Source: Polaromonas sp.
Lineage (GTDB): Bacteria > Pseudomonadota > Gammaproteobacteria > Burkholderiales > Burkholderiaceae_C
Assembly: GCA_030683705.1 (NCBI GenBank)
Contig: JAUXPP010000151.1
Location: 1-64,000 of the forward strand
Length of the DNA stretch: 64,000 nucleotides
Direction of reading: 5' to 3'
Numbering within the stretch: the first letter of the stretch is position 1; every line of letters starts with the position of its first letter. Shown piece by piece: positions 24,873-26,971 of this stretch. The notes below the pieces were generated by a model. It had not been told where the DNA came from. It searched no databases and worked only from the letters and a program-made list of their open reading frames with translations. A program made the position numbers and the translations under genes.

Positions 24873-26720
24873 ATGTGTGGCATCGTCGCTTCTGTTTCTA
24901 CCCGCAACATCGTTCCCATCCTGGTGCAAGGCCTGCAGCGCCTGGAGTACCGGGGCTACGACTCCTGCGGCGTCGCCGTGTATGCCGATGGGCTCAAGCG
25001 TGCGCGCAGCACCTCACGCGTGGCCGAACTGATGGAGCAGGTGAGCACGGACAAACTCGAAAGCGGTACCGGCATCGCCCACACGCGCTGGGCCACGCAT
25101 GGCGCGCCCGCCGTGCACAACGCCCACCCGCACTTCAGCCACGGTAGCGGCGACGCTGCGCACAAACCCGGCAAGGTCGCGCTGGTGCACAACGGCATCA
25201 TCGAGAACCACGACGAATTGCGCGCCGCGCTGCAGGCCAGGGGTTATGTGTTTTCCAGCCAGACCGACACCGAGGTCATCGTGCACCTGATGGACAGCCT
25301 GTATGACGGCGACCTGTTCGAAGCCCTCAAGGCTGCTACGCGCCAGTTGCACGGCGCCTACGCGATTGCCGCCTTTTGCAAGGACGAACCGCACCGCGTG
25401 GTCGGCGCGCGTGCCGGCTCGCCGCTGATCCTGGGCGTGGGCAAGGACAAGGCCGAGAACTTCCTGGCCAGCGACGCGATGGCGCTGGCCGGCGTGACCG
25501 ACCAGATCCTGTACCTGGAAGAAGGCGACCTGGTGGATATCCAGCTCGGCAAGTACTGGGTCATCGACCGCGAGCACAAGGCCGTGCAGCGCGAGGTCAA
25601 GACCGTGCAGGCGCACAGCGGCGCGGCCGAGCTCGGCCCCTACCGCCATTACATGCAAAAGGAAATTTTCGAGCAGCCACGCGCCATCGGCGACACGCTC
25701 GAAGGCATCGCCGGCATCACCCCCGAGCTGTTCGGCGACGACGCGTTCCGCGTCTTCAAGGACATCGACTCGGTGCTGATCCTGGCCTGCGGCACCAGCT
25801 ACTACAGCGGTTGCGCCGCCAAGTACTGGCTCGAATCGATTGCGGGCATCCCGACCCAGGTCGAGGTCGCCAGCGAATACCGTTACCGGACTTCGGTGCC
25901 GAATCCGAAGTCGCTGGTGGTCACCATCACCCAGAGCGGCGAGACGGCCGACACGCTGGCCGCGCTGCGCCATGCCCAGTCCATGGGCATGACCCAAACG
26001 CTGACCATCTGCAATGTATCGACCTCGGCGATGGTGCGTGAATGCAAGCTGGCCTACATCACGCGCGCCGGTGTCGAGATCGGCGTGGCCTCCACCAAGG
26101 CCTTCACCACGCAGCTGGCTGGCCTGTTTTTGCTGACCCTCGCGCTGGCGCAAAGCAAGGGCAAGCTCAGTGACGAAGAGGAAGCCGGGCACCTCAAGGC
26201 CATGCGGCATCTGCCGGCCGCGCTGCAGGCGGTGCTGGCGCTGGAGCCGCAGGTGATCGCCTGGGCCGAAGACTTCGCCAAAATGGAAAACGCACTGTTT
26301 CTCGGCCGCGGCCTGCCGTACCCGATCGCGCTCGAAGGCGCGCTCAAGCTCAAGGAGATCAGCTACATCCACGCCGAGGCTTACCCGGCCGGTGAACTCA
26401 AGCACGGACCGCTGGCGCTTGTCACGAGCGCCATGCCGGTGGTCACTGTCGCGCCCAACGACAGCCTGCTGGAAAAGCTCAAGAGCAACATGCAGGAAGT
26501 CCGCGCCCGCGGCGGCGTGCTCTACGTGCTGGCCGATGCCGATACCAAAATAGAAAGCGGCGAAGGCATCCACGTGATCCGCATGCCCGAGCACTACGGC
26601 GCGCTGAGCCCGCTGCTGCACGTGGTGCCGCTGCAATTGCTGGCCTACCACACAGCCGTAGCCCGCGGCACCGATGTTGACAAGCCGCGCAACCTGGCCA
26701 AATCAGTCACTGTGGAGTGA
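24873..26720 (+). CDS. glmS: Glucosamine-6-phosphate synthase (isomerizing glutaminase)
   Basis: A 615-residue GlmS makes glucosamine-6-phosphate from fructose-6-phosphate and glutamine. MCGIVA supplies the N-terminal Cys nucleophile of the glutaminase domain (about residues 1-240). Two SIS isomerase domains follow (about 290-430 and 460-600), with the sugar-phosphate loop CGTSYYS. The C-terminus is the invariant [15 protein letters not shown]. The 3' end is the classical attTn7 target and is followed by two extra copies of itself. Confidence 0.97.
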
Positions 26721-26727
26721 CTGATTT
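26700..26727 (+). other. Hairpin across the glmS stop codon (native attTn7-like tail)
   Basis: Perfect 11-nt arms AAATCAGTCAC (26700-26710) and complement (26717-26727) around TGTGGA, spanning the last codons and stop of glmS. This is the region bound by TnsD-type proteins in Tn7 systems. It could also act as a weak transcription stop, but no T-run follows. Confidence 0.7.
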
Positions 26728-26810
26728 GGAGGCGGCATGAAAATGCCGCGCGGCGCAGCCGCCAGGTTTTAGGCTTGGGGGAACACTCATGTCGCGCAGC
26801 GACGTGATGT

Positions 26811-26858
26811 GATCACCACAAACCGCGAAACCTGGCGAAGTCAGTGACCGTCGAATGA
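26811..26858 (+). pseudogene. glmS 3'-end duplicate, copy 2
   Basis: In one frame this reads D-H-H-K followed by [11 protein letters not shown] and TGA, the exact GlmS C-terminus. Codon use differs from the real gene at seven of the eleven codons (for example Arg CGA versus CGC, Lys AAG versus AAA, Glu GAA versus GAG). Like the real tail it has a hairpin across the stop, here with arms TGACCGTC/GACGGTCA. There is no start codon or upstream GlmS sequence, so it is a detached tail, not a gene. Confidence 0.85.
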
Positions 26859-26938
26859 CGGTCAGCGTGCCAAGCACGCCTCGCGGTTCGGTGGGCACTC
26901 ACTTGCGAAGCAAGTTAGGTGACCGCACAAGTCCCTGC

Positions 26939-26971
26939 CGCAATCTTGCAAAAAGCGTGACCGTCGAATGA
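26939..26971 (+). pseudogene. glmS 3'-end duplicate, copy 3
   Basis: Reads [10 protein letters not shown] and TGA, again with different codons from copies 1 and 2 (AAT, CTT, GCA, AGC). The residues before it are degenerate (DRTSPC in place of DVDKP). The stop-spanning hairpin is kept with one mismatch (GTGACCGTC versus GACGGGCAC). It ends 22 bases before the 3' end of the convergent sulP gene. Confidence 0.82.

Follow-up and report, generated by a model that had tools for sequence, protein, structure and literature searches.

Palindromic repeat units behind glmS of Polaromonas sp. and the probable replacement of conserved gene ends

The present analysis concerns the 3' end of glmS in Polaromonas sp., as found in a stretch of 64,000 nucleotides of contig JAUXPP010000151.1 (assembly GCA_030683705.1), the whole of which is called the window. 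Behind this gene stand two additional copies of its own end, and these copies are parts of a repeating palindromic unit that is encountered at many genes in related bacteria. The analysis has established (i) the repeating unit; (ii) its conserved core; (iii) its recurrence at many genes; (iv) the synonymous history of the displaced gene ends, referred to here as tails. The units are probably tiny non-autonomous mobile elements, which insert at G/ANAA in conserved gene ends, restore the gene and displace the old end downstream. In the proposed sequence of events, a palindromic element of 109-138 bp would insert at G/ANAA within the conserved glmS end, bringing its own last ~12 codons and stop. 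As the element carries the end of the gene, the protein would be kept and the insertion would be harmless. The former gene end would be pushed downstream, and repeated events would stack old glmS ends one behind the other. A recombinase or transposase acting in trans would move the units, and a stem arm (P1') with complementarity to gene sequence immediately 3' of the site of insertion would help to pick the target.

The unit is a palindrome of about 110-140 bp, composed of a hairpin, which pairs the gene tail with an inverted copy of it, and of a covarying core hairpin. Its parts follow in the order: last codons with the stop, inverted tail copy with one or two inserted small hairpins, core hairpin. 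Three tail types (A, B and C) can be told apart by eye; B and C have other sequence in place of the central part of the inverted tail copy. As read from the sequences, a glmS unit starts at an ANAA within the gene (ACAAGCC, codons D-K-P) and ends just ahead of the next ANAA. The cores were aligned as two types. Alignment A1 holds 29 sequences, selected by hand from 40 found, in 45 columns without gaps; 48 of its cells had changed on both sides of a pair, compared with 13.8 in shuffles. The second type (class iii) is a three-way junction, and its alignment A2 of 18 sequences gave 35 such cells against 9.6 in shuffles, with all five measures over every shuffle. Models R1 and R2 were built from A1 and A2, respectively. 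A dispersed repeat (class ii) possesses the same core hairpin, untied to gene tails (loci L144-L148, L150-L153, L217, L222 and L226); in several of its loci the core is preceded by a CTTTCTTTTG..CAAAAGAAAG hairpin.

The array of the window is listed in Table 1. The first-pass annotation of this DNA had reported two further copies of the glmS tail after position 26720, and these were borne out. They appear as a repeat family of 39 nt (D1) at 26688-26726, 26826-26864 and 26939-26977, in which the middle copy shares 72% and 77% identity with the two outer ones. Over the 11 codons of the tail peptide, the second copy differs from the functional glmS end by seven synonymous and no nonsynonymous changes, the third by eight and none, so that the peptide differs by synonymous codons only. 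A complete reading of the sequence that separates the tails (~100 and ~80 nt) showed no transposase, as had been stated; these spacers had been described as plain scars with small hairpins, whereas each of them holds a conserved core hairpin. Both cores are recognized by model R1, the next match on the same strand of the window reaching 13.1 bits. Folding of the 306-nt array region gave z = -8.0, and none of 100 shuffles was as good. At E<=0.001 the genome contained no other array-like sequence, and the sole second match was the stop palindrome on the other strand. Comparison of the array with Rfam at E<=5 returned six matches, all far under the gathering score. At E<=1, the comparison of 14 unit loci gave five matches, of which none at a unit attains the gathering score, and a tRNA match in L192 is located beyond the unit.

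To judge from their codons, the displaced tails seem once to have been genuine gene ends, of foreign origin with respect to the present end and left by serial events; this part of the earlier annotation gains support from the codon counts and from a relative (locus L004) whose functional end matches tail B. When the 14 displaced glmS tails of nine genus loci are compared with their own functional ends, 85 codons differ synonymously, 6 nonsynonymously and 63 are identical; random single changes would be synonymous in 25% of cases, and codons are not independent events. All 14 are closer to the best other functional end than to their own, a comparison with up to 16 ends that favours the others by construction, and six of the 14 lie within 1 nt of a functional end elsewhere. 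Displaced tails of other genes show the same kind of counts (synonymous/nonsynonymous: acs 25/10, metK 42/13, argF 34/16), taken from copies at least 62% identical and with one metK locus (L225 and L244) counted twice. The excess of synonymous changes between functional ends and non-coding copies refutes local duplication in place as the sole cause. A tandem duplication of the glmS end followed by divergence in place is very improbable, even with the near-identical tandem arrays seen in genomes G286 and G412 in its favour.

The occurrence of tails at other glmS loci was assessed by a tail-peptide scan of 112 loci from the same genome, the genus and named relatives, of which L021, L075 and L083 gave no tail. 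For the genus, 61 genomes were searched and 59 matched; 30 loci were taken from these, 29 of them with a complete glmS end. Tails behind every glmS, a result which the first-pass annotation had expected to speak against its reading, were not encountered: two or three tandem tails are present in nine of the 29 Polaromonas-group loci (L003, L004, L006, L007, L008, L009, L012, L013, L022). Among 80 named loci, of which L033 and L034 duplicate L007 and L008, tandem tails also occur in L087 and L100, and the unit is present in L073 and L111. The spacing of the tails is of two classes, one at about 113 nt and the other at about 138 nt. The types are arranged as A-B-C in the window and in L013, B-C in L004, C-A-C in L012 and B-A-B in L022. 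L010, L006 and L007 share a downstream gene, 94% identical over 900 nt, which is preceded by no unit, one unit and two units, respectively.

The closest relative in the sample is L004, with glmS DNA 92% identical to that of the window. Its functional end equals tail B of the window over 54 nt from ANAA, and its array equals the window array minus A; it may represent the condition that preceded the arrival of A, or one that followed a loss of A. A loss is conceivable since L013 is also A-B-C with the same downstream gene, the stretch past its array being 90% identical to that of the window (813 of 904 alignment columns). Throughout the 29 loci, the distance between functional tails does not follow the distance between gene bodies (r = -0.03), whereas each of 19 control windows, chosen without overlap, gave a higher value (0.00 to 0.51). 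For the nine multi-tail loci r was -0.14, and the median of the controls was 0.45. Three pairs with a common tail type have their nearest upstream difference 1-7 nt before the tail.

Separate observations were made at some glmS ends. A second glmS tail is found 2.2 kb past the glmS end in L057 (11834-14062; tail of ~130 nt) and 0.8 kb past it in L043 (3852-4657; 773 bp). The core pattern was not found in L043 or L057, and the two look like other kinds of event at the glmS end. Genome G031 (L012, L143) carries a core hairpin and a degenerate glmS tail ~97 kb downstream of glmS (C3:56779 to C3:153365), an arrangement suggestive of a glmS array split by a large island.

Units are also associated with other genes. 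The genome of the window contains three tandem acs tails (G000:C80), a duplicated metK tail (G000:C77) and, after a branched-chain/urea-type permease gene (G000:C152), a core with no clear second tail. In other genomes the hosts include argF, narK-type, serS, pstB, groES, proB, ftsW, dnaJ, alanine-type aminotransferase and hypD genes, a second tail being absent at groES; the family matches of the permease, narK-type, acs (fragment) and mdtB/muxB-type genes are below curated cut-offs. The unit is not confined to gene ends. It lies in frame within an mdtB/muxB-type RND gene in G286 and G132, in frame after a cysH domain in G004, and at the beginning of an acetyl-CoA acetyltransferase gene in L322, where the functional start MQDPIVIASVARTPMGG is accompanied by a displaced copy, MSDPIIIASVARTPMG. 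A copy of the upstream sequence past the core scores above 29, the 95% point of a mismatched-site control, at 31 of 50 gene-end sites (those with a listed gene-end peptide, some sharing a locus), compared with 1.4% of 770 placements chosen at random within these loci. The surveyed sets of 77 and 29 sites are chosen matches, not all matches. The in-frame units of L264 and L246 (RND gene), in tandem in L246, and of L291 (cysH) would add residues to the proteins. In L326 and L338 a unit is located between a copy of the 5' half and the intact gene of tRNA-Ser(GGA).

The end of glmS is the attTn7 site, and the first-pass annotation had taken the tails for scars of an element lost from it. Scars of Tn7-like islands, or of other large attTn7 elements, are the least probable of the explanations considered. 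A AAAGTCGTAAACA motif is repeated tens of bases past glmS in many loci (L005, L011, L014, L016, L023, L041, L045, L077, L081, L086), and other loci have AAAGTCCGTCGG; both motifs presumably resemble the ends of Tn7-like islands, and to this extent they agree with such an origin. However, a AAAGTCGTAAACA-type motif is located after the last tail in L008, L009 and L012, and Pfam analysis of eight open reading frames (ORFs) that follow the motif in L086 and L045 revealed no transposition genes, L045 having an NB-ARC protein. Between the tails there is no transposase, and no transposon end was recognized by eye. Moreover, the unit of 109-138 bp recurs across the genus and at acs, metK, argF and other genes unrelated to attTn7. 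Island scars were rejected on account of the transposase-free spacers and of the units at these genes.

The units may also be regarded as selected functional 3' RNA structures, terminators or mRNA stabilisers, with the duplicated tails as a by-product. This is improbable, although the strong folding, the covarying cores and the location after the stops of housekeeping genes are in accordance with it, as is a G-rich stem followed by three or four T, read from the sequences of relatives L007 and L012. Tandem tails follow only nine of the 29 glmS genes of the genus, and the unit occurs at a gene start (L322) and in frame in an mdtB/muxB-type gene. In addition, a simple scan of 26600-27050 detected no terminator-like site on the glmS strand and one on the opposite strand, where shuffles give 0.5.

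The insertion point appears as a short junction. The gene side reads G-ANAA: GACAAG in glmS, GAAAAC in acs, argF, serS and mdtB-type genes, and GAAAAG in permease, narK-type, groES and some metK genes. The last base of the element ahead of ANAA is C or T; pstB departs from the junction pattern. Of 37 class iii sites, 18 have at least 9 of the 10 nt ahead of the core complementary to a stretch of the upstream gene, and ANAA opens the match in 17 of these 18. Against shuffles, the complementarity has p<0.05 at 22 of the 37 sites, and in L242 the complementary stretch is elsewhere in the gene than the tail. A more far-reaching proposal, which should be taken as speculative, is that the units are minimal self-homing elements of ~100 bp with two hairpins and no gene. 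Their antisense arm, with its target just 3' of G/ANAA, would serve as an RNA or single-stranded DNA guide, the carried gene end would make the insertion harmless, and new target families would arise by capture of the end of an adjoining gene.

The distribution of the units was examined at E<=1e-4. Model R2 has matches in 30 of 44 chosen family genomes, in 80 of 240 Burkholderiales genomes (the order name being taken from named relatives), with up to 22 per genome among these 240, and in 2 of 223 class-wide genomes, both from the family of the window; searches of more than 40 genomes used stricter filters, so the R2 counts are lower bounds. Model R1 has at least one match in 28 of the 44 genomes, with 0-17 per genome. 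In G042, four R1 matches at three places and one R2 match were obtained. A Y1 (RAYT-type, PF01797) transposase gene is present in 41 of the 44 genomes. A RAYT was considered as the mobiliser and rejected: with carriage in 41 of 44 genomes, and with two class iii genomes lacking a match, it neither discriminates nor seems to be needed.

The most probable of the competing explanations, though on balance an unlikely one, dispenses with dedicated mobility. According to it, the unit would be an old structured 3' element, whose arrays are resized by recombination between direct tails and which spreads by homologous recombination (gene body plus tail copy). Several results favour it. Identical host genes are shared by several genera, which also fits an old insertion with recombination. 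Near-identical tandem expansions, such as the five cores at a constant 137-bp spacing in G286, resemble slippage, and recombination between tail copies probably also alters arrays, for example in G286. The arrays of L004 and L010 may be products of loss. Near-identical functional tails occur in four of 388 body-divergent pairs, not above 17 control windows (2-85); such tails in divergent genomes were dropped as a proof of mobility, since they are at least equally frequent in control windows. In the stretch immediately ahead of the tail, 9 of 61 bases differ between the window and L004, above the 8% of the whole gene. These mismatches fit a longer exchanged tract, and the same stretch is more variable in other strains too. 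On the other side, the nearest difference in the three same-type pairs, 1-7 nt upstream, is closer than usual for homologous exchange. The units in frame within a coding gene and at a gene start mean that new kinds of place were colonised, and P1 complementarity begins at ANAA in different genes.

Together with the shared host genes, the number of near-identical tails and the mismatches upstream of the tail, further observations weigh against mobile units. For the R1 core, two of the five covariation measures are not over the shuffles (72/500 and 133/500 shuffles as high). The 20 loci without tandem tails are also uncorrelated in tail and body distance (r = -0.06), with one of 19 controls at or below this value. 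Complementarity of 9/10 is reached at just the 18 class iii sites, all from six host genes. The tRNA-Ser sites (L326, L338) fit only in part, the intact gene being on the side expected for the displaced copy. No mobilising enzyme was found. The hairpin is not near any of the 11 Y1-gene loci examined, and G203, G254 and G381 have no Y1 match, of which G254 and G381 carry class iii matches.

A comparison with known systems reveals partial likenesses. Integrase islands insert into the 3' end of a target gene, supply a replacement end and leave the old end downstream. The units differ from them in their size of ~100 bp and in the lack of an integrase gene, for which 109-138 bp leaves no room. REP sequences are present in high copy number. 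The units are larger and have fewer copies, show no GTAG/CGTC tag at either terminus of the A1 consensus, and have no core by the 11 Y1-gene loci. Rickettsia palindromic elements (RPEs) are not known to swap gene ends. In the part of the literature consulted, RPEs resemble the units by description as small palindromes in frame within proteins (PMC3733652), and REPs accompanied by RAYTs (GTAG-/CGTC-tagged palindromes) as imperfect hairpins near the 3' ends of ORFs (PMC3733652). The Beta-proteobacterial repeat element (BRE), according to the portion of its description used here, is a repeat of ~90 bp in Betaproteobacteria, including Polaromonas, found in tandem and in variable number; some copies overlap ORF ends, others lie wholly within coding sequence, and 29 copies are given for Polaromonas sp. 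JS666 (Hot et al. 2011, PMC3110155). The betaproteobacterial habitat, size, tandem arrangement and placement at ORF ends or within ORFs are common to BRE and the units, the two being compared by description. That same portion of the account (PMC3110155) is silent on the G/ANAA junction, on old ends left displaced and on a gene end supplied as a replacement. The units are filed as a variant among small palindromic repeats, outside any named family, BRE, REP and RPE having been compared by description. A literature search, mainly outside subscription journals and at abstract level, gave no account of gene-end swapping.

If the units are indeed mobile elements that replace gene ends, a tiny non-coding element lives in essential genes by replacing their last codons, and lineages exchange the ends of genes such as glmS, metK, argF and ftsW apart from the gene bodies. 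This would offer a testable model for the movement of BRE and similar small palindromic repeats. The superseded gene ends would form a fossil record that can be read in order, and the units would be an example of complementarity to a target for which no enzyme is known.

Table 1. Features of the glmS array and its surroundings in the window
Feature	Coordinates	Strand	Remarks
glmS CDS (coding sequence)	24873..26720	+	ORF; TIGR01135 above cut-off; last codons from 26680 fall within unit A
Unit A, 138 bp, ANAA to ANAA	26680..26817	+	boundaries from comparison with other arrays; content 5'->3': functional glmS tail, stop hairpin, two small hairpins, inverted tail copy, core hairpin
Hairpin across functional glmS stop	26698..26729	.	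arms 14 bp, perfect
Core hairpin, unit A	26775..26819	+	model R1, 59.4 bits, E 2.6e-17; the sequence (L001) is itself among the 29 of R1
Displaced tail B	26818..26858	+	identical to functional glmS end of L004
Unit B, 109 bp, ANAA to ANAA	26818..26926	+	
Core hairpin, unit B	26887..26929	+	model R1, 42.3 bits, E 1.5e-11; not among the sequences of R1
Displaced tail C	26927..26971	+	glmS-like peptide from 26939; 5' part unlike glmS
Possible unit C remnant	26972..26993	+	weak, from reading of the sequence
SulP-like transporter gene, array boundary	26994..28730	-	named from reading of the protein

Apart from the array, the window contains at 52267-52330 (+) a match to Rfam RF02278, a Betaproteobacteria toxic small RNA, with 50.9 bits (cut-off 50), which is the sole Rfam match of the window.
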